Notes under the pieces: generated by a model
Databases searched by the model: none
The model's input: only the letters and a program-made list of their open reading frames with translations
What the model was told of the DNA's origin: nothing
Translations under genes and position numbers: made by a program
Part shown: positions 1,897 through 33,880 of the stretch, in pieces
Layout: each line of letters opens with the position of its first letter
Position numbering within the stretch: position 1 is the stretch's first letter
DNA from: Desulfobacterales bacterium
GTDB taxonomy: Bacteria; Desulfobacterota; Syntrophobacteria; B119-G9
Reading direction: 5' to 3'
Assembly: GCA_026983715.1 (NCBI GenBank)
Contig: JALSTM010000234.1
Coordinates: 1 to 34,718, forward strand
DNA length: 34,718 bases

Positions 1897-3813
1897 TTAT
1901 AAGCGATCTTCGGGATCGTAAAGACATTGATGTGCGATCTGGGTTAGATCCAAATGTATCTTATATACACCATCTTCCCAAATACGCTGCATCACGTAGC
2001 CCGTCCTGTTAAAAATCCCAAGTATGCCCTGGTTTTCCGGAGATATGTAAGCAAAAACACCCTTTATGCCACGGCTTCTGGCAATCTCAACCAGATAGTG
2101 TACAAGAAAAGTTGCTATTCCCATCCTTTGCCAGTTCGGGTGCACTGCGAAATCTAATTCCGCTAACCCGGTGTCTTCGTTATACAAGTAACATCCGAGG
2201 GCTATAATTTTTTCTTCACCATCTTTTTCCACATATCCGATGACGGCCATTTTCCTAACATAATCTATATTCACCAAAGATTTTATGTCCCTGCTGGGGA
2301 AAACCTTCATAATGGAAAGGAACCGTACGTAAGTTTCATCACTCGGCAAAGAATCGAAGAATTCTTCAAGCCTTGTTTTGTCAACGGGTCTTACGGGTCT
2401 AAAATGTACCAGTCTTTCGCCGGGAAAAACTTGCCTGATTTCCCATTCTTTGGGCAGAAATGGTGGCGCTTCCCTGGGAACTGCTATTCTTCCCATCGGG
2501 TAAAGTTTATCCACTTCAGATAGCAATTCTTCTCTGAATTTTGGATGAGCTATACCGACCAACGCAAGAGCTCGTTCTCTTAGGGTTTTCCCAAACAGGT
2601 CAACAATTCCGTACTCAGTTACAATGTAACCTGCTCCTCCCCTGGTTGTCACAACCCCTGCCCCTTCCGAGAGGTACGGAACTATCCTCGAATGCTTCCC
2701 GTCAAGCGTGGTAGAAGGGAGCACAGTAATTGCTTTTCCACCCCTAGAAAACCGGGCACCTCGCAAAAAGTCGACTGATCCCCCTACACCACTGTAGATG
2801 TCATAGCCAACTGTATCGGCACATATCTGGCCTGATAGGTCTATCTCAAGGGCAGAACTTATGGTAACCATTTTGTCATTTTGGGATATTACCAGGTAGT
2901 CGTTAGTGTATTCTACCGGATGAAACTCCACCATGGGGTTATTATGCACAAAATTATACAGCTTCTCAGAACCAAGGGCGAAACTGGTAACAATCTTCCC
3001 GGGGTGCAAGGTTTTCTCGCTGTTTGTTATCACCCCTTTTTCAATAAGGAAAAGGTAGGCATCGGTGAGAATATCGGAGTGCACTCCCAGGTTCTTCTTG
3101 TCCGCCAGGGAATAAAGGATCGCATTCGGTATGCTCCCGATTCCAACCCTTATGGTACTCCCATCTTCAACTAGTGTTGCCACGTTATTTCCAATGGCCT
3201 TGGCAATGTCATTTATCAGGGGAGGTTCCATTTCCAGTAACGGTTCTTCGTATTCAACAACAGCGTCAATTACATCCAGGTGAACGAAGCTATCCCCCAG
3301 GGTATAAGGCATCCTTGGATTGACCTGGGCTATAACGTATTCAGCATTTTCAACCGCTGATTTTACAATATCCACTGCTATCCCCAGGCTGCAAAAGCCA
3401 TGGGAATCAGGGGGGGATACCTGTATCAATGCAACGTGAATGGGGATTGACTCGCTCCTGAAGAGACTTGGAACATCAAAAAGGTTTATGGGAGTATAGT
3501 CGGCTCTTCCTTCTGATACTGCTTCACGATATGCTGTTGCAATAAAAAATGATTTCAAGCGGCAGTAATCAGACAAGGAAGGGTCCGTGAAGTGAGGCTG
3601 CCCTAAAGAAACCAGGTGAAGGATTTCAATATCCGCAAGCTGGGGCAAAAACTTTTCAAATTCCCGGGTCAAGTACTGCGGCTCACCACACCCGGAACCA
3701 ACGAATACTCGCTGCCCTCTCCTTATTTTCCTGAATGCCTTCTGCGGTTCAGTAAGCTTTTCTTTCAAGATTTTCTCGGCTCCCGAATACGATCTTTCGG
3801 TTCTTTCAATCAT
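1897..3813 (-). CDS. Acetyl-CoA hydrolase/transferase family protein fused to a C-terminal GNAT acetyltransferase domain
   Basis: 638 aa. N-terminal part has GSGCGEPQ, IQVSPPDSHGFCSLG, DGSTIRVGIGSIPNA, GGSVDFLRGA. C-terminal part has HFRPVRPVDK...AELDFAVHPNWQRMGIATFLVHYLVEIARSRG...NRTGY, a GNAT signature. Confidence 0.88.
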   Translation of the reverse strand: MIERTERSYSGAEKILKEKLTEPQKAFRKIRRGQRVFVGSGCGEPQYLTREFEKFLPQLADIEILHLVSLGQPHFTDPSLSDYCRLKSFFIATAYREAVSEGRADYTPINLFDVPSLFRSESIPIHVALIQVSPPDSHGFCSLGIAVDIVKSAVENAEYVIAQVNPRMPYTLGDSFVHLDVIDAVVEYEEPLLEMEPPLINDIAKAIGNNVATLVEDGSTIRVGIGSIPNAILYSLADKKNLGVHSDILTDAYLFLIEKGVITNSEKTLHPGKIVTSFALGSEKLYNFVHNNPMVEFHPVEYTNDYLVISQNDKMVTISSALEIDLSGQICADTVGYDIYSGVGGSVDFLRGARFSRGGKAITVLPSTTLDGKHSRIVPYLSEGAGVVTTRGGAGYIVTEYGIVDLFGKTLRERALALVGIAHPKFREELLSEVDKLYPMGRIAVPREAPPFLPKEWEIRQVFPGERLVHFRPVRPVDKTRLEEFFDSLPSDETYVRFLSIMKVFPSRDIKSLVNIDYVRKMAVIGYVEKDGEEKIIALGCYLYNEDTGLAELDFAVHPNWQRMGIATFLVHYLVEIARSRGIKGVFAYISPENQGILGIFNRTGYVMQRIWEDGVYKIHLDLTQIAHQCLYDPEDRL

Positions 3814-9443: not shown

Positions 9444-10022
9444 ATGAGCGTTCAAACTCCACAGACCATCGTTCCTGATTATTCTTTTTTGAAAAAGGTT
9501 GAATTCGAGAGCAAGATAAAGGCATCCGCATGTTTTCAGTGTAGAAAGTGTACAAACGGATGCCCAGTAACGTTTGCCATGGATTTCTATCCCGACCAGA
9601 TTCTTCGTTTTATTCATCTTGGTTTAAGGGATCTGGTATTAAATTGTGCAACAATATGGGTTTGCGCTTCCTGCGAAACATGCACGACCCGATGTCCCAA
9701 CGAAATCGATATTGCCGGTCTCATGGATTACTTGAAAGAAAGCGCAGAGAAGGAAGGAATCGGAATAAAGGATAATAAGACCTATATGTTCCACAGGGTC
9801 TTTCTGGATGATGTGAAGAAGCGTGGAAGGGTGCACGAACTGAGGCTGATGAACGAGTACATGCTGAAAACAGGGGAAGGGGTTAAGAAGCTCAAGGATG
9901 ATTCCTGGAAGCAGGATTTGAAGCTGGGCCTTGGCATGCTCACAAAGGGCCGGCTACCGCTGCTCCCCAAGGGTATCAAGAACAAGAAGGAAGTTAAAAG
10001 AATCTTGGAAAATATTGATTAG
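9444..10022 (+). CDS. hdrC: Heterodisulfide reductase subunit C-like Fe-S protein
   Basis: Two 4Fe-4S motifs, CFQCRKCTNGCPVTF and CASCETCTTRCPNEID; immediately followed by hdrB/hdrA. Confidence 0.9.
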   Translation: MSVQTPQTIVPDYSFLKKVEFESKIKASACFQCRKCTNGCPVTFAMDFYPDQILRFIHLGLRDLVLNCATIWVCASCETCTTRCPNEIDIAGLMDYLKESAEKEGIGIKDNKTYMFHRVFLDDVKKRGRVHELRLMNEYMLKTGEGVKKLKDDSWKQDLKLGLGMLTKGRLPLLPKGIKNKKEVKRILENID

Positions 10023-10039: not shown

Positions 10040-10897
10040 ATGATTGATGTTAGTTATTACCCGGGATGTTCACTGGAAGGAACGGCAAAGGATTATCGAG
10101 AATCCATAGAAACTGTTTGCGAACGAGTTGGCATAAAGTTGCATGAGCTGGAAGACTGGAACTGCTGTGGAGCTACAGCCGCACACAGCTTGAGTCACAA
10201 GGCTGCAATCAATCTCTCGGCAAGAAACCTGACCATAGCCGAGAAAGCAGGAATGGACTTAGTGATTCCCTGTGCCCTGTGTTTCAATAGGATGAAAGCA
10301 GCCGAAAAGGTTCTCCTAGGACCCTATCGTCGGGAATATGCGTATAGGTTTGAAGGAAGTATAAAGATATGGGATTTACTCGATTTCTTTTGCCAGGACA
10401 GGGTTAAAGCTGAAATAGCCAGGCGGTTTAAGCGGCCGCTAAAAGGCCTAAAACCGGTTTGTTACTACGGGTGTATGGCAAACAGGCCACCCACTATCAC
10501 CGATGCCAGGAACTGGGAAAACCCTACCAACATGGACGAACTGCTGAGCTTTCTTGGTGCTGAGGTTATCGACTGGCCGTACAAGACTGATTGTTGTGGA
10601 GCCAGTCACGTGGTCGCTCGACCCGATATAGTGTTTAACCTTGTGTACAAGCTTTTTGATATGGCCGAAAGGGTAGGGGCTAACTGCATTGTAGTGTCCT
10701 GCCAAATGTGCCAGGCAAACCTTGACATGTACCAGGATGAAATTAGTAAGAAATTCAATCGCGACTTTTATTTCCCGATTCTCTACTTTACGGAACTGGT
10801 AGGGATGGCAATAGGTGAAAAGCAAGTAAATAGGTGGCTTACGAAGCACTTTGTAAGCGCGAAACCCTTGATTGAAAGCGTCGGATTAAATCTTTAG
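10040..10897 (+). CDS. hdrB: Heterodisulfide reductase subunit B-like protein (two CCG domains)
   Basis: YYPGCSLEGTAKDY, WNCCGATAAHS, CYYGCMANRP, DCCGASHVV, SCQMCQANLD. Confidence 0.93.
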   Translation: MIDVSYYPGCSLEGTAKDYRESIETVCERVGIKLHELEDWNCCGATAAHSLSHKAAINLSARNLTIAEKAGMDLVIPCALCFNRMKAAEKVLLGPYRREYAYRFEGSIKIWDLLDFFCQDRVKAEIARRFKRPLKGLKPVCYYGCMANRPPTITDARNWENPTNMDELLSFLGAEVIDWPYKTDCCGASHVVARPDIVFNLVYKLFDMAERVGANCIVVSCQMCQANLDMYQDEISKKFNRDFYFPILYFTELVGMAIGEKQVNRWLTKHFVSAKPLIESVGLNL

Positions 10898-10943: not shown

Positions 10944-13900
10944 TTGAAGGTGAGCAACCAAGAAAACGGAACAAAGAACGGAAAACCGGTTGGATCTGTA
11001 ATGGTGATGGGAGGAGGAATCGCCGGAATGCAGGCGTCCCTTGACCTTGCCAATTCCGGGTTTCTGGTCTACCTGGTGGACAAGAATATAAGTATTGGTG
11101 GAGTAATGGCACAGCTTGACAAGACATTTCCCACCAATGACTGTTCTACGTGCATGATTTCGCCCAAGCTGATTGAAGTGGCTAGCAATCCTAACATTGA
11201 GATAATAACGAGGGCGGAAGTCGAGAGGGTAGAGGGAGAAGCTGGTAATTTTGTTGTCACAGTTAAGAAGTACCCTCGATTTGTTCGTGAAGATAGGTGT
11301 ACAGGTTGTGGGGAGTGTATAAACGTCTGCCCGGTTGATTTGCCTGCCGATTTTAATCAAGGCTTAAATACCCGCAAAGCCATATACCGCCACTTTCCGC
11401 AAGCCATACCTTCCACTTTTGCCATCGATAAGCTTGGAACATCCCCGTGCAAGGCGGCGTGTCCGGCAGGCGTGCATGCTCACGGCTATGTTGCCCTCAT
11501 TCGTCAGGGGAAATACAAGGAAGCGTTGAAACTTGTCAAAAAGGATAATCCCCTGCCAAGTATTTGTGGTAGAGTGTGTCCGCACCCGTGCGAAAATGCC
11601 TGCACCCGCGGTGAAGTGGATGAGCCGGTAGCTATCGACTTCCTTAAACGTTTCGTTGCAGACCTTGATCTCTACGACGAAGAACCTTATCTGCCCGAAG
11701 TGAAGGAAAAGAAAGAAGATAAAGTTGCTATAGTTGGAGGTGGCCCGGCAGGTCTCACCGCCGCATATTTTCTGGCTATGGAAGGGTATCCGGTAACCAT
11801 CTATGAATCCATGCCCGAGGCCGGCGGTTGGCTCATCTACGGAATCCCCGATTACAGGTTACCGAAGGAGATCGTAAGAAAAGAAATAGAGCTCATTGAG
11901 AAACTGGGTGTTGAAATCAAAACTAACGTTTGTGTGGGAAAAGATGTAACCCTTAAGAGCCTGAAAGATCAAGATTACAAGGCCATTTTTATCGCTACAG
12001 GTACAACGAAAAGCCGGGCGATGGGAATTGAGGGAGAGGATTTGCAGGGAGTAATCCCTGGTGCCGACTTTTTAAGGCGCGTCAATGTCGGTGAAAGACC
12101 TGACCTGGGTGAAACGGTGGCGGTAATTGGCGGTGGAAACGTTGCCATGGATACTGCCCGAAGCGCCCTTAGGACGGGTGCAAAGAAAGTTATGGTACTT
12201 TACAGGAGGGCTCTTGAACAGATGCCCGCCAACCCGGAAGAAATCGAAGAAGCCCAGGAAGAAGGCGTGGAATTCCATTATTTGGTTGCCCCTGTCAAGA
12301 TTATTGGGGATGAAAATGGTCGCGTTAAAGCAATCCGATGCATCAGGATGGAACTAGGCAAGGCCGATGAGAGCGGAAGAAGGCGACCGATTCCGATTGA
12401 AGGTTCTGAGTTTGAAATCGAAGTAGACGCCGTGCTCCCTGCCATAGGTCTTTCTACTGATTTAAGTTTCCTCAACGGAATCACGGATGATCTGAAGCCT
12501 AAGCTTTCCAGGTGGCAAACCATAGAAATTGATCCGATAACCCTTGCAACCAATGTAGAAGGAATTTTTGCCGGCGGTGACGTCGTAACCGGTGCTGCCA
12601 CGGTAATAGATGCAATTGCTGCGGGTAAAAAGGTTGCCGTATCCATAGATAGATATCTACGGGGAGAAGACATGGCAGCGGGAAGAAAGGCTCAGCAACC
12701 TGTAGCCCAGCCAAAAATACCCTGCGTTCAGAAGGCTCCCCGTGCTAGAATGCCTAGGCTCGATCCCGAAGAACGGGTCAAATCGTTTTCCGAGGTTCAA
12801 CTCGGGTTCAGCGAAGAAGAAGCCATCAAAGAAGCCGAACGGTGCCTCAACTGCGGGCTCTGTTCCGAATGTTACCAGTGTGTGGAAGTATGCCAGGCAG
12901 AAGCAATAGACCACGAAATGACTGAGGAAACCCTGGAACTAAACGTGGGTTCAATTCTGTTTTCGCCTGGATTCGAAACCTTCGATGCAAAGCTAAAGGC
13001 AGAGTACGGCTACGGACGTTACGATAACGTAATTACGAGCCTGGAATTTGAAAGAATCCTCTCTGCTTCCGGGCCGACAACCGGTCACGTGGTTAGACCA
13101 GGAGATCACAAGGAACCGAAAAAAATTGCTTGGATACAATGTGTTGGATCAAGGGATGCGAGCTTAAAGAGGGATTACTGTTCCGCTGTCTGCTGCATGT
13201 ATGCAACAAAGCAGGCCATTATTGCCAAGGAACATGCTCCGGATATTGAGCCTACGATATTTTTCATAGATATTCGCGCCATGGGAAAAGGTTTTGAGCG
13301 TTACTACGAGAGGGCGAAAAACCAGCGCGGTGTTCGATACGTCCGGAGTCTTGTCTCTAGAGTGGTAGAAGTCCCTGAAACCAAGGACTTAATGGTGCAA
13401 TATGTCGATGAAGAGGGACAGATTCAAACGGAAGAATTTGACATGGTAGTTCTTTCCGTTGGTTTGAAACCACGGAAAGAAACGGAGGAATATGCCGAGA
13501 GAATCGGAATAGAGGTTGACAGTTACGGTTTTACCAAGAGCAAGCCGTTTGACATTGTATCTACAACCAGGGAAGGGGTTTTTGCTTGTGGTGTTATCCA
13601 GAACCCCAAGGATATTCCTGAAACCGTGGCTCAGGCAAGCGCGGCATCGGCTGAAGCACAGCGTGTAATAGCGGAGTCCCGTGGTCAACTGGTTAGGGTT
13701 CTGGAGAAACCGCCTGAACGCCCCGTTACAGGTGAAATACCGAGGGTTGGTGTTTTTATCTGCCACTGCGGAATCAATATCGCCGGGGTGGTAGACGTGG
13801 AAGCGGTTACTGAGTACGCGAAAACATTGCCAAACGTGGTATTTGCAGAACATCTTCTTTTTAGCTGCTCCACTGATGCAACAGAACACATAAAGGAAGT

Positions 13901-15443
13901 TATAAAGGAGCAAAAGCTAAACAGGGTGGTGGTGGCATCTTGTTCTCTTAGAACACACGAACCACTTTTCCAGACGTGCTTGGAGGAAGCTGGTCTGAAC
14001 AAGTACCTGTTTGAAATGGCTAACATTCGTGATCAGTGTTCGTGGGTACATTCGGAGGACAAGGAAAAAGCCACAGAGAAAGCGAAAGACCTTGTAAGAA
14101 TGGCGGTTGCGCGCTCGGTGTTCCTGGAACCACTCTACGAGTTCTCGTTCCAAGTGGCTCAACAGGCACTGGTTATCGGCGGTGGAGTTGCCGGGATGAC
14201 GGCAGCCTTGAACCTTGCCGACCAGGGTTTTTTCACCTACCTGGTTGAAAAGGAAAGTGAACTTGGCGGACAGGCCAGAAAGAATATCTTTTTTACTCCG
14301 GACGGCCTTGATGCGCAGAGTTACGTAAACGAACTTGTGGAAAAAGTACAAAACCACGATAAGATAAAGGTTTTTACAAAAGCACAGGTTATTGATTATT
14401 CAGGCCACGTGGGTAACTTCACTTCCAACGTTCTCGTGGATGGAGAAAAGGAGAGTATCCAGTATGGTATTGCCATCATTGCAACTGGCGCAGTTGAATA
14501 TCAGCCAAAAGAATATCTCTACGGAGAGAATAACCGGGTGTTAACGCAACTTCAGTTTCACAAAGCCTTGGCCACTGGGGACGATAGTATAAAGGATCTC
14601 AAAGATGTAGTGATGATTCAGTGTGTTGGTTCCCGGGATGAGGAGAGGCCATACTGCAGTAGAGTCTGCTGTACTGCTGCCGTGGTTAACAGCTTGAAGT
14701 TGAAGGAACTAAACCCCGATGTTAACGTCACCATCCTATATAGGGATATAAGAACCTTTGGCACAAAAGAACTTTATTACAAGAAAGCTCGTGAAGCAGG
14801 AATACGGTTCATAAGGTACGAGCCGGAGCAGAAACCAGAAGTAAAAGCAAGCGGGAATGGCTTGGAAATATCCGTGTTTGACCAGAGTATCAAGCGCAAC
14901 GTTTTACTTAGAGCTGATCGCCTTGTATTGAGTGCGGCAATTGTTCCGTCTCCGACAAACAAGGACATTGCACAGGTGTTTAAACTTAACGAAGACGCTG
15001 ATGGGTTCTTCATGGAGGCACACGTGAAATTGCGTCCTATCGATTTTGCAAATGCCGGTTTCTTCCTTTGCGGTCTCGGCCACGGGCCAAAATTCCTCGA
15101 CGAAGCAATTGCTCATGCCAAGGGCGCGGCATCAAGAGCTGCCACGTTACTCAGCAAAAAGGAAATGTTCGTAGGTGGACGTGTGGCCGTAGTTGACAGA
15201 AAGAAGTGTGCGGTATGTTGCACGTGCGTGCGCGCATGCCCCTATGGAGTCCCGTACATAGGGCCCCACGGGGCAGCAGTGATAGAACCTGCAATTTGCA
15301 GGGGATGTGGAGTTTGTGCGTCGGAGTGTCCCGGGAAGGCGATTTCGCTTCAGCATACAACCGACGTTCAGGTAATTACGAAAGTAGAAGGGCTTCTGGA
15401 GGAATCCCTGGAAGGTATTGTTCCTTCACAAGCTTCGAACTAG
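10944..15443 (+). CDS. hdrA: Very large HdrA: HdrA flavoprotein with inserted GltD-like NAD(P)H/FAD module plus a second HdrA-like half (start TTG 10944 or GTG 10950)
   Basis: 1499 aa. VMGGGIAGMQASLDLANSGF...; ferredoxin motif CTGCGECINVCPVD; GltD-like CKAACPAGVHAHGY...CGRVCPHPCENACTRGEVDEP, VAIVGGGPAGLTAAYFLA, VAVIGGGNVAMDTARSALRTGAKKVMVLYRR; HdrA IQCVGSRDASLKRDYCSAVCCMYATKQA; second half VIGGGVAGMTAALNLADQGF and IQCVGSRDEERPYCSRVCCTAAV; C-terminal 2x4Fe-4S. Confidence 0.9.
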   Translation: MKVSNQENGTKNGKPVGSVMVMGGGIAGMQASLDLANSGFLVYLVDKNISIGGVMAQLDKTFPTNDCSTCMISPKLIEVASNPNIEIITRAEVERVEGEAGNFVVTVKKYPRFVREDRCTGCGECINVCPVDLPADFNQGLNTRKAIYRHFPQAIPSTFAIDKLGTSPCKAACPAGVHAHGYVALIRQGKYKEALKLVKKDNPLPSICGRVCPHPCENACTRGEVDEPVAIDFLKRFVADLDLYDEEPYLPEVKEKKEDKVAIVGGGPAGLTAAYFLAMEGYPVTIYESMPEAGGWLIYGIPDYRLPKEIVRKEIELIEKLGVEIKTNVCVGKDVTLKSLKDQDYKAIFIATGTTKSRAMGIEGEDLQGVIPGADFLRRVNVGERPDLGETVAVIGGGNVAMDTARSALRTGAKKVMVLYRRALEQMPANPEEIEEAQEEGVEFHYLVAPVKIIGDENGRVKAIRCIRMELGKADESGRRRPIPIEGSEFEIEVDAVLPAIGLSTDLSFLNGITDDLKPKLSRWQTIEIDPITLATNVEGIFAGGDVVTGAATVIDAIAAGKKVAVSIDRYLRGEDMAAGRKAQQPVAQPKIPCVQKAPRARMPRLDPEERVKSFSEVQLGFSEEEAIKEAERCLNCGLCSECYQCVEVCQAEAIDHEMTEETLELNVGSILFSPGFETFDAKLKAEYGYGRYDNVITSLEFERILSASGPTTGHVVRPGDHKEPKKIAWIQCVGSRDASLKRDYCSAVCCMYATKQAIIAKEHAPDIEPTIFFIDIRAMGKGFERYYERAKNQRGVRYVRSLVSRVVEVPETKDLMVQYVDEEGQIQTEEFDMVVLSVGLKPRKETEEYAERIGIEVDSYGFTKSKPFDIVSTTREGVFACGVIQNPKDIPETVAQASAASAEAQRVIAESRGQLVRVLEKPPERPVTGEIPRVGVFICHCGINIAGVVDVEAVTEYAKTLPNVVFAEHLLFSCSTDATEHIKEVIKEQKLNRVVVASCSLRTHEPLFQTCLEEAGLNKYLFEMANIRDQCSWVHSEDKEKATEKAKDLVRMAVARSVFLEPLYEFSFQVAQQALVIGGGVAGMTAALNLADQGFFTYLVEKESELGGQARKNIFFTPDGLDAQSYVNELVEKVQNHDKIKVFTKAQVIDYSGHVGNFTSNVLVDGEKESIQYGIAIIATGAVEYQPKEYLYGENNRVLTQLQFHKALATGDDSIKDLKDVVMIQCVGSRDEERPYCSRVCCTAAVVNSLKLKELNPDVNVTILYRDIRTFGTKELYYKKAREAGIRFIRYEPEQKPEVKASGNGLEISVFDQSIKRNVLLRADRLVLSAAIVPSPTNKDIAQVFKLNEDADGFFMEAHVKLRPIDFANAGFFLCGLGHGPKFLDEAIAHAKGAASRAATLLSKKEMFVGGRVAVVDRKKCAVCCTCVRACPYGVPYIGPHGAAVIEPAICRGCGVCASECPGKAISLQHTTDVQVITKVEGLLEESLEGIVPSQASN

Positions 15444-15474: not shown

Positions 15475-15915
15475 ATGTCGAATTTTGAACCGGAAATTAT
15501 TGCTTTTTGCTGCATGTACTGAGCGTACACTGCGGCGGACCTGGCAGGTTCGATGAGATTGTACTATCCACCGAATGTGAAGATTGTTAACGTGCCGTGC
15601 ACCGGGAGAGTAGACATTATCCATATCCTGAAAGCCATAGAGGAAGGAGCGGATGGTGTCTATGTGGCCGGGTGACTGGAGGGTGAATGTCACTACTTGA
15701 CAGGCAACCTCCGGGCGAGGAAGCGAGTTGAATACGTAAAAAAATTGCTAGAAGAGCTTGGAATTGAACCAGAGCGCGTGGAGATGTTTAACCTTTCTGC
15801 GGCTGACGGACCGAAGTTTGCCCAGTTTGCCAGGGAATTTACTGAGCGCATAAAGGAACTTGGCCCCAGTCCGTTGAAAGAAGATGAAAAGAAAGAAGAA
15901 AAAGCTGCAGCTTAG
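15475..15915 (+). CDS. mvhD: MvhD-like [2Fe-2S] protein (methyl-viologen-reducing hydrogenase delta subunit) with two predicted selenocysteines
   Basis: Reading through TGA at 15520-15522 and 15673-15675 gives MSNFEPEIIAFCCMYUAYTAADLAGSMRLYYPPNVKIVNVPCTGRVDIIHILKAIEEGADGVYVAGULEGECHYLTGNLRARKRVEYVKKLLEELGIEPERVEMFNLSAADGPKFAQFAREFTERIKELGPSP... The frame is continuous across both TGAs, MvhD motifs are retained, and an SD-like AGAAAGGTGAAG precedes the ATG. Confidence 0.9.
15536..15552 (+). promoter_or_regulatory. Candidate bacterial SECIS hairpin for Sec codon 1
   Basis: CGGACCT-GGC-AGGTTCG, 7 bp with one G-U, starting 13 nt after the TGA at 15520-15522. Confidence 0.5.
15676..15714 (+). promoter_or_regulatory. 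Candidate bacterial SECIS hairpin for Sec codon 2
   Basis: Outer stem CTGGAGG/CCTCCGG (15676-15682/15708-15714), inner stem TGTCA-CTACT-TGACA (15688-15702), directly after the TGA at 15673-15675. Confidence 0.5.
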
Positions 15916-15993: not shown

Positions 15994-16027
15994 TCTGTTG
16001 AAAAAGTTAATATTTAGGAGGTTAAAG

Positions 16028-16783
16028 TTGAGTTACACTATAGCTCTTGGAGGTAAAGGTGGCACCGGAAAGACCACCATTGCAGGGTTTTTGATTAGGT
16101 ACATGATAGAAAAAGGGAAAAAACCCATACTGGCAGTGGATGCCGATTCAAATTCGAACCTGCACGAAGTACTCGGTGTGGAACTTGAAACCACGCTTGG
16201 AGAAGCCCGCGAAATGATGAAAAAGGACGTCCCAACCGGTATGACAAAAGATATGTTCATGGAAATCCAGGTGGAACGAGCTCTTGTTGAATCTGATGGG
16301 TTCGACTTAATTGCCATGGGACGACCGGAAGGACCCGGCTGTTACTGTGCTGCAAATAACATTTTGACAAACCTCATCCAGCGACTCATGAAAAACTATC
16401 CCTATCTGGTCGTAGATAACGAAGCGGGCATGGAACATTTCAGCAGGCTAACACAAAAAAACATAGATTTACTCTTGCTTGTGTCTGATCCGAGCAGGCG
16501 TGGACTTACCGCGGCGAAAAGAATACTCGAGTTAGTTGATACTCTTCCCATTAGAGTCGGAGAAAAATTCCTTATTATTAATCAAGCTCAAGGTGAAAAC
16601 ATTAGCCTACCTGAAGATATAGAAAAAGCGTTTGGAGAGGGAAATTGGGGGGTGGTGCCCGCTGATCCAAAAGTGGCTGAGTTCGATATGCAGGGCAAGC
16701 CAACATTTTCCTTGCCGGAAGATTCCGTCGCAATCAAAGCCTCGTTTTCTCTCTTTGATAAGCTGATTGAGGATGCTAAGTAG
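16028..16783 (+). CDS. cooC: CooC-family CODH nickel-insertion ATPase (TTG start)
   Basis: MSYTIALGGKGGTGKTTIAGFLIRYMIEKGKKPILAVDADSNSNLHEVLGVE; AGGAGG SD precedes TTG 16028, so the track start at 15998 looks too early. Confidence 0.85.
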   Translation: MSYTIALGGKGGTGKTTIAGFLIRYMIEKGKKPILAVDADSNSNLHEVLGVELETTLGEAREMMKKDVPTGMTKDMFMEIQVERALVESDGFDLIAMGRPEGPGCYCAANNILTNLIQRLMKNYPYLVVDNEAGMEHFSRLTQKNIDLLLLVSDPSRRGLTAAKRILELVDTLPIRVGEKFLIINQAQGENISLPEDIEKAFGEGNWGVVPADPKVAEFDMQGKPTFSLPEDSVAIKASFSLFDKLIEDAK

Positions 16784-31153: not shown

Positions 31154-31988
31154 GTTCGTAAGCGTTCATACTCTTGCGAACCAGTTTGAAGCGGATTTAC
31201 TGAAGGGTGCGTTGGAAAATGAAGGCATCCCTGTTATCGTGAGATCCTTTCATGATACTGCATATGACGGTATTTACATACCCCAGAAAGGCTGGGGACG
31301 GCTACTTGTGCCGGAAGTACATCGAGAAAAATCCGAATCTCTCATCTGCCAGATACTTGAAGATATTGAAAAGGGCGGGAGCAGGTACGAGAATCCTCGG
31401 AATATAGATCCGGTGCTCTGGGAAAATTTATTGGTTCAAGTTCCGGAAGATGTGGTCAAAAGGGCGAGGGTAAAGTACGATGATCGGGGTGGCGTTTATA
31501 AAATACCTTTTTTAAATGAAACCCTGATTTGCAATCCCCGTGACCGTCTCATCTTTCCTGAAAATCCAAGGAGTAGGATCACCAGCGATTTTCAACTGTA
31601 CCTCGTGGTATTAACCTACCTTCTTGAAGCGAAGGATGTTGAACTGTCAAACGTCTATGTCAACGAAAAGGGGATAAAAGGGGGCGAATTTTTCTTTAAG
31701 GGCCCACACAAATTATCCACGGGAAAACTTGAAAGCAGGTACAGGAAAGATGAAAAGGGGTTCTTTCGCGCTGGCGAAAAGCTAGGGGGCGAAAAAGTGG
31801 CTCTAGGGGATGCAGCCTTTAAAGTTTGGCCCTTCCCCAGAATTCCCCTCATTTACATACTGTGGATGGAGGACGATGAATTTCCTGCAAGTGTATCGGT
31901 TAACTTTGATTCCACTATCGAGCAACACCTGCCCCTTGATGTTATATGGGGATTAGTAAATGTGGTGAGCGGGTTATTGCTGAAATGA
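31131..31988 (+). CDS. DUF2007-like N-terminus plus DUF3786-like domain protein
   Basis: VSVHTLANQFEADLLKGALENEGIPVIVRSF (DUF2007-like); C-terminal KVWPFPRIPLIYILWMEDDEFPASVSVNFDSTIEQHLPLDVIWGL (DUF3786-like); overlaps the Fe-S gene by 23 nt. Confidence 0.65.
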   Translation: MKDRSPDEFVSVHTLANQFEADLLKGALENEGIPVIVRSFHDTAYDGIYIPQKGWGRLLVPEVHREKSESLICQILEDIEKGGSRYENPRNIDPVLWENLLVQVPEDVVKRARVKYDDRGGVYKIPFLNETLICNPRDRLIFPENPRSRITSDFQLYLVVLTYLLEAKDVELSNVYVNEKGIKGGEFFFKGPHKLSTGKLESRYRKDEKGFFRAGEKLGGEKVALGDAAFKVWPFPRIPLIYILWMEDDEFPASVSVNFDSTIEQHLPLDVIWGLVNVVSGLLLK

Positions 31989-33880
31989 AGTATCTAACAA
32001 AATGGAGAGTATCCTACCGGGCTAAGGTTATTTCCGCCCCCGAGGCTTTCAATATCTACCTCGCAAACGGCGACCGGGTTTTTGTTGGTACCGGGTGTGG
32101 AGAACCACAGCATTTGTTGTCTGAACTTAAGAAAGTCTTGCCGTGTTACCACGACCTTGAATTTGTTCAAGGACTCTCTCTTGGAATCAATCCGGTAGCC
32201 GAAGAATGTTATGAAGGGCGTTGCCGATTAAGGAGTTTTTTTGTTTCAGGGAAGGCCAGGGAAGCGATAAGAGAAGGCCGTGCCGATTATGCCCCTGTAT
32301 ATCTGTCAAGGGTTCCCGACCTGTTCAAAAAAGGCCTGGTGCCCATAGATCTGGCAATGATACAGGTCAGCCCCCCTGATGAACATGGCTTTTGCTCACT
32401 AGGTGTATCAGTTGACATTGTTAAATCTGCGATGAAAAGCGCCAGGACGGTTATAGCCCAGGTAAATAGGTTCATGCCAAGGGTGCTGGGAGATACTTTT
32501 ATCCACTTTAGTGAGATTGACGCATTCGTGGAACATGACGAACCTCTCGTTGAGATGGTTTTTCCAACTCAAAGCGCGGTGGCTGAACGCATAGCAGGGT
32601 ACGTATCTAAGCTCGTAGATGACGGATCAACAATTCAAGTCGGCATTGGTAATCTTCTAAACAGCGTTCTGGTTAAATTGAAGAATAAGAAGGATCTTGG
32701 TGTACACTCGGAATTTCTGAGCGATGCACATTTACAGCTCGTCCGGGAAGGCGTTATAACGGGTAAGAAAAAATCGATTCATCGCGGAAAGATGATTGCA
32801 AGTTTCTGCATGGGAACCAAGGAACTTTACAATTTCGTAGATAATAATCCTACGGTCGAGTTCTATCCGACTGAGTATGTAAATAACAGTTCAGTTATAG
32901 CACGCAACGATAAAATGGTAGCAATGAATTCTGCCATAGAAGTAGATTTAACAGGGCAGGTTTGCGCTGACTCCCTAGGACACAAGATTTACAGCGGCAT
33001 TGGCGGATACGTTGACTTCATGATGGGGGCATCCCGATCCAAAGGGGGACGGTCAATTATCGTTTTGCCTTCCACTACCCCTGATGGGAAAAAATCCAGA
33101 ATTGTAAGCCACCTGATGAAGGGCGCAGGTGTGGTTACTCCTCGCAGCAACATTGAATTTGTCGTAACTGAATTCGGCATAGCACACTTATTCGGGAAAA
33201 CCATCCGAGAAAGGGCTCTCGCGTTGATCAACATCGCGCACCCCAGGTTCCGGGAAGACCTTTTGCGGGCAGCAAAACAGGTGCGTTACGTGTATGAAGA
33301 CCAAATTCTGCCTCCTATCTACGAACCCCTTTACCCGGGACAATGGGAAACTTACCAGATTTTTCCACCTGATAACCAGAAGGTTTTCTTTCGTCCCATA
33401 AGGCCTACAGACGAAAGGGCACTCCAGGAGTTCTTTTACTCGCTTCCGGATGAAGATATCTACTACCGGTTCCTGTCAGCCATGAAAGTTTTCCCTCACA
33501 GAAACATTCAGGCAATGGTTAACATCGATTATGAACACGAAATGGCAATAGTTGGGGTTATAGGTGATATTGGTGAGGAGAAGATCATAGCACTTGGGCG
33601 GTACATTTTAGACCAAAATACCAACATGGCCGAGGTTGATTTCGCAGTAAGAGCCGAATGGCAGGGAAAAGGTATCGGTACATTCTTGTTGCACTACCTC
33701 TGCGAGATTGCGAAAAGTAAGGGAATTTCCGGATTTTGTGCTTACGTACTGGCTTCCAACAGGGGCATGTTAAAGATTTTCCACAAGGTTGGTTACGTTG
33801 TTCATACTCATCTGGAAGGCGGAGTTTATGAAATCTATTTTAGGTTTGACGAACCTGCGGATCAGTGTATTACAGAATGA
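31985..33880 (+). CDS. Second acetyl-CoA hydrolase/transferase-GNAT fusion
   Basis: Paralogous to 1897..3813 along its full length (GTGCGEPQ, IQVSPPDEHGFCSLGVSVDIVKSA, VEFYPTEYVNNSSVIARNDKMV, C-terminal GNAT). ATG 31985 is a more likely start than 31946, which is inside the upstream gene. Confidence 0.88.
   Translation: MKYLTKWRVSYRAKVISAPEAFNIYLANGDRVFVGTGCGEPQHLLSELKKVLPCYHDLEFVQGLSLGINPVAEECYEGRCRLRSFFVSGKAREAIREGRADYAPVYLSRVPDLFKKGLVPIDLAMIQVSPPDEHGFCSLGVSVDIVKSAMKSARTVIAQVNRFMPRVLGDTFIHFSEIDAFVEHDEPLVEMVFPTQSAVAERIAGYVSKLVDDGSTIQVGIGNLLNSVLVKLKNKKDLGVHSEFLSDAHLQLVREGVITGKKKSIHRGKMIASFCMGTKELYNFVDNNPTVEFYPTEYVNNSSVIARNDKMVAMNSAIEVDLTGQVCADSLGHKIYSGIGGYVDFMMGASRSKGGRSIIVLPSTTPDGKKSRIVSHLMKGAGVVTPRSNIEFVVTEFGIAHLFGKTIRERALALINIAHPRFREDLLRAAKQVRYVYEDQILPPIYEPLYPGQWETYQIFPPDNQKVFFRPIRPTDERALQEFFYSLPDEDIYYRFLSAMKVFPHRNIQAMVNIDYEHEMAIVGVIGDIGEEKIIALGRYILDQNTNMAEVDFAVRAEWQGKGIGTFLLHYLCEIAKSKGISGFCAYVLASNRGMLKIFHKVGYVVHTHLEGGVYEIYFRFDEPADQCITE

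Follow-up and report, generated by a model that had tools for sequence, protein, structure and literature searches.

The question raised by this 34,718-nucleotide stretch of DNA (the window) is whether positions 15475 to 15915 of its forward strand hold a decayed mvhD gene of the FlpD family, or an intact one in which two in-frame TGA codons are read as selenocysteine (Sec, U).

Reading frame, fold and the decoding of TGA

Read through both TGAs, the coding sequence started at an ATG (15475) with an AGGTGA Shine-Dalgarno-like stretch, ended at a TAG (15913) and gave a product of 146 aa, MSNFEPEIIAFCCMYU...VAGULEGECHY..., with the TGAs at 15520-15522 (codon 16) and 15673-15675 (codon 67). The initial annotation had proposed exactly such a full-length MvhD, and coordinates, frame and Pfam match agreed with it, the FlpD model (PF02662) being matched over its whole length (model positions 1-123 of 123) with E 2.8e-53 and 179.6 bits against a gathering threshold of 22.3. 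The product scored 171.3 bits with the NCBIfam model NF045873 (F420_non_VhuD), below the curated cut-off of 215, and is related to this VhuD model but outside its membership. An AlphaFold2 model computed with 31 homologues as input reached a mean pLDDT of 92.2 and superposed on 5odc_D, the MvhD subunit of the Methanothermococcus Hdr-Mvh complex, with TM-scores of 0.88/0.93 at 49% identity. The all-Cys MvhD proteins of Methanothermococcus thermolithotrophicus (5odc_D) and M. hungatei (7bkb_F) share the fold (49% identity, TM 0.88-0.94), but unlike the window protein they have Cys at both positions. A mechanical ORF search places a start at 15697, which would suit two MvhD parts made separately by translation restart; this start, however, falls within helix 74-94 of the modelled fold and loses C72 together with everything upstream, and no such split was seen among relatives. 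Restart was rejected on these grounds, with a probability close to nil.

The reading of TGA itself was considered at the level of the genome. TGA is the normal stop of about 8 of the 29 likely genes in the window, so there is no general reassignment of the genetic code, and a genome-wide code change was rejected. The four genes that the initial annotation had tied to Sec decoding were all found in the genome, which leaves the Sec reading standing: selA (647 bits), selB (374.7 bits, above cut-off), the tRNA-Sec gene selC (anticodon TCA) and selD, itself with an in-frame TGA. Another reading, in which a suppressor tRNA or a reassigned code puts Cys or Trp at TGA, would fit the Cys that homologues have at both positions, but the TGA-terminated genes, the full Sec system and a downstream sequence block frozen only in genes with TGA at codon 16 (see below) speak against it, and we give it almost no weight. 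Seven FlpD-domain genes were present in the genome, three of them with an in-frame TGA. Two further MvhD paralogues of the same genome (L015, 1483-1872, and L017) have a single TGA at codon 67, followed by the canonical hairpin described below for that position. The Rfam model SECIS_1 (RF00031) had no match in the genome; this result is uninformative because control genomes gave no match either. A plasmid search returned no match.

Codons 16 and 67 in relatives and the SECIS of Sec16

The homologue set comprised 80 loci of public genomes together with loci from phylum searches. Across this set, codons 16 and 67 were each TGA, TGC or TGT. Two loci departed from this: L019, a distant HdrA-MvhD fusion of the organism itself, with Asp at 16, and L021, a truncated copy. 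The alignment thus bore out the expectation of the initial annotation, with Cys or Sec at both positions and no frameshifts or unrelated stops. TGA occurred at codon 16 in 65 of 135 distinct relatives and at codon 67 in 23 of 135; by protein, the states were Sec16/Cys67 (59), Cys/Cys (53), Cys/Sec67 (17) and Sec/Sec (6). Two further candidates for double-TGA genes (G009 and G297) were rejected, each having Cys at 67 on reading. Double-Sec bacterial MvhD occupied three distinct positions in the tree (the window genus; L068; and L152, L155 and L156), which indicates at least three origins of the Sec/Sec state in the bacteria sampled. The last three proteins form a second subfamily in bacteria, FLCTWU...GGU, in which TGA16 is followed by a conserved block of its own, GCTGACCTGGCTGGGGTC. 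An alignment of 31 sequences contained five invariant Cys columns (13, 16, 42, 67 and 72); should four of them bind a [2Fe-2S] cluster, one or both Sec residues would be ligands.

In the window lineage the gene was found in two genomes, the second being that of a congener (L022, genome G002), which has both TGAs. Between the two genes, 139 codons contained 48 synonymous and 9 non-synonymous changes, and past codon 67 dN was 0.047 and dS 0.69 (dN/dS about 0.07), so this stretch is under purifying selection as protein. These data bear on the reading of mvhD as a pseudogene, or of its two stops as assembly errors. Standard gene callers report just a short ORF in the mvhD frame and both genomes resemble draft metagenome assemblies, but the TGAs replace invariant Cys with no frameshift, the same two TGAs recur in a separate congeneric genome, and the SECIS element following TGA16 is intact; we consider such decay or error very improbable.

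The SECIS hairpin for Sec16 lies at 15536-15552 of the forward strand (CGGACCU-GGC-AGGUUCG), with 7 bp and a GGC loop that lies 20 nt past the TGA and whose initial G fits the bacterial SECIS model (PMC13188914). In a close set of 62 distinct sequences with TGA16, codons 21-24 (GCG GAC CTG GCA) had no synonymous variant and codon 25 was GGT in 61 of 62; synonymous entropy over codons 21-25 was 0-0.12 bit in these genes vs 1.0-1.8 bits in 41 Cys16 genes. A covariance model of this element (R1), built without the window genus, matched the window at 15520-15561 with 64.5 bits (E 2e-15) and found nothing further at E<=1 elsewhere in the genome. The hairpin that the initial annotation had drawn here therefore exists, but it is not unusually stable: single-sequence folding gave z +0.29, and 994 of 5000 synonymous recodings were as stable. 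Pair covariation gave no information because the block is frozen, and with no support from single-sequence folding the case for this SECIS is a comparative one. The same apical CUGGCAG is found in a formate-dehydrogenase-like predicted selenoprotein gene of the genome (L176). With a SECIS in a block frozen in TGA16 genes, and Cys or TGA at this codon in relatives, we regard the predicted Sec at position 16 (FCCMYU) as close to certain.

Hairpins downstream of TGA67

In other MvhD genes with Sec67, the TGA is followed by a canonical hairpin, CAUUACC-UGNAN-GGUAAU, to which all 20 aligned sequences held strictly, apart from a single pair change that was compensated. Bacterial Sec67 proteins (L015, L017, L045 and L092) and doubles (L068, L152, L155 and L156, which also have TGA16) share TGA67 with the window gene and carry either this element or a UUUCC/GGAAA version of it, whereas the window gene has neither. 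A UA version of the covarying pair was seen in the Chloroflexi/Dehalococcoidia MvhD genes L092, L096 and L097, in which Sec occurs only at 67. At the corresponding place in the window (15691-15708, forward strand) the sequence is degenerate, CACUACUUGACAGGCAAC; the SECIS67 model (R2) scored 17.9 bits with the hairpin not formed, and the congener scored 21.9 bits, against 51-64 bits for the Sec67 genes tested and 12-33 bits for Cys67 genes. The window gene deviated at all four of the frozen codons 73, 75, 77 and 78, and the congener at two of the four.

Directly after TGA67, a long hairpin at 15676-15714 of the forward strand (CUGGAGG/CCUCCGG, inner UGUCA/UGACA, loop CUACU) is a candidate non-canonical SECIS. 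It folded at -20.9 kcal/mol with z -3.8, and none of 5000 synonymous recodings was equally stable. Around it, codons 65-90 contained 2 synonymous changes between the congeners in 25 codons where about 10 were expected (hypergeometric P 0.0002 for this chosen stretch; permutation p 0.006-0.08, depending on window size, when windows were scanned). Both changes sit in the loop of the hairpin, and codons 76-90 had none. The initial annotation had listed this structure as a plausible hairpin after the second TGA: it does exist and is strong, but other Sec67 MvhD genes use a different SECIS, and its apical loop does not satisfy the bacterial rule of a G among the first two loop positions (PMC13188914), although some bacterial SECIS elements lie outside that model according to the same review (PMC13188914). 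The only candidate after TGA67 that formally satisfies the rule is a 4-bp hairpin obtained by enumeration, CCUC-CGGGC-GAGG, at 15708-15720 (forward strand; loop with G, 36 nt past the TGA), and some such 4-bp match is present in 41% of Cys67 genes. The two structures are mutually exclusive, and the small one emerged in folds once the first 9-12 nt were unavailable.

As the long hairpin is not the family SECIS and its loop departs from the rule, decoding of UGA67 is less secure than that of UGA16. One reading is that Sec16 is decoded normally while UGA67, having no working SECIS, mostly terminates, so that full-length MvhD is rare or made only at ample selenium and the gene is in early decay. 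The missing canonical element, an R2 score within the Cys67 range and the rule-breaking loop all favour such termination, but the low dN/dS past codon 67, the conservation of synonymous sites around the hairpin, a stability far beyond the synonymous null and the retention of TGA67 in both genomes run counter to it, and we judge it unlikely. Cys or TGA in relatives at this codon and TGA in the congener point instead to a probable Sec at position 67 (VAGU). As to how it is read, we tentatively suggest, at well below even odds, a SECIS of another class than that of its family, which could be either the strong hairpin with its G-less loop or the small hairpin CCUC-CGGGC-GAGG, formed by refolding once a ribosome at UGA67 has melted the first ~12 nt. 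If this were true, one homologous Sec codon would have exchanged its SECIS for another in situ.

Gene neighbourhood, known systems and significance

Upstream, mvhD adjoins hdrC, hdrB and hdrA on the same strand. These encode an HdrC-like 4Fe-4S subunit (9444-10022; profile matches), an HdrB-like CCG-domain subunit (10040-10897; Pfam CCG and PDB HdrB matches) and the presumed partner of MvhD, an HdrA-like flavoprotein of 1499 aa with an inserted GltD domain (10944-15443; Pfam, PDB and NCBIfam matches). The HdrA has two flavoprotein modules in addition to the GltD insert and no in-frame TGA; Sec-containing HdrA is common in sulfate reducers. No mvhA or mvhG was seen beside mvhD. Downstream, a MinD/CooC-like ATPase gene lies at 15998-16783, and the congener contig has an ORF of similar size at the equivalent position (2673-3428). 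Two long ORFs, one towards each end of the window (1897-3813, reverse strand; 31946-33880, forward strand), resemble paralogues, with an acetyl-CoA hydrolase/transferase-like start ('RVFVGSGCGEPQ' and 'RVFVGTGCGEPQ', respectively) and a GNAT-like end.

HdrA with a GltD insert corresponds to type III HdrA, for which a reaction with NAD(P)H has been proposed (PMC12054007). Pairs of HdrA/HdrL and MvhD in the absence of a hydrogenase, with Sec in MvhD, have been described in Desulfobacterium autotrophicum (PMC2702500), and solved complexes show the [2Fe-2S] cluster of MvhD, or of its homologue, close to the FAD at which HdrA bifurcates electrons (PMC12350162). Solved homologues put MvhD beside HdrA, and by analogy with them the window protein may have an electron-transfer role at HdrA. 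We propose that SelB with Sec-tRNA-Sec would read UGA16 through the conserved SECIS hairpin at 15536-15552 and UGA67 through a lineage-specific hairpin within 15676-15720, and that the resulting MvhD would serve as the [2Fe-2S] electron-transfer subunit of a cytoplasmic, electron-bifurcating HdrC-HdrB-HdrA(GltD) complex. Electrons would move through this subunit between a donor module and the HdrA flavin; since mvhA and mvhG are not in the operon, the donor is perhaps NAD(P)H acting through the GltD insert. Sec insertion itself, the choice of structure at UGA67, the route of the electrons and any influence of a selenolate on cluster potential or on speed are what we infer from the sequence and its comparisons. 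The double-selenoprotein reading is supported by the Sec machinery, the Cys/TGA columns, the SECIS of Sec16 and the selection past both TGAs, and we put a probability of roughly 0.8 on the locus being an intact mvhD for a double selenoprotein, with UGA16 read by a conserved SECIS and UGA67 by a lineage-specific hairpin, whose product is the predicted electron-transfer subunit of HdrCBA(GltD).

Sec in MvhD/FrhD of sulfate reducers has long been known (PMC1794560), vhuD of Methanococcus maripaludis has two TGA codons (PMC9622424), and a recent review mentions two Sec for the family and multiple Sec in archaea. The chain sequence of PDB entries 9sfi/9t1s (9sfi_K) carries Sec at both homologous positions (FVCYQ-Sec and VAG-Sec), Sec appearing there as X, as in the control 1aa6; our literature search found no paper naming 9SFI or 9T1S. 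The initial annotation had singled out two Sec in one MvhD as the notable part: the pair is real here, but as it is already known from M. maripaludis vhuD and from 9sfi/9t1s, it is less novel than was held. The M. maripaludis VhuD belongs to the same family and likewise has two TGA codons, but neither it nor the 9sfi/9t1s chain (about 145 bits) is a close relative of the window protein. In archaeal decoding the SECIS lies mostly in the 3' untranslated region (PMC13188914), whereas the window gene should carry, within its coding sequence, a separate bacterial SECIS for each TGA. Closer to the window protein are the Sec16-only MvhD/FrhD proteins of Desulfobacterota (for example Desulfacinum, L048 and L062; about 65-80% identity), which share FCCxYU and an identical SECIS16 block but have Cys at 67. 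No description of a bacterial double-Sec MvhD was found in the searchable papers, most subscription papers lying outside the search.

The swapped second SECIS is the part of the finding worth testing. TGA67 also probes how far the bacterial SECIS rule holds. Automatic annotation misses or splits such double-TGA genes. The locus adds to the known two-Sec MvhD proteins one from a bacterial lineage, where two separate SECIS elements are required in frame within about 200 nt. The occurrence of Cys/Cys, Sec/Cys, Cys/Sec and Sec/Sec states in one small protein provides a clean natural comparison for the role that selenium at this [2Fe-2S] subunit has in electron bifurcation.
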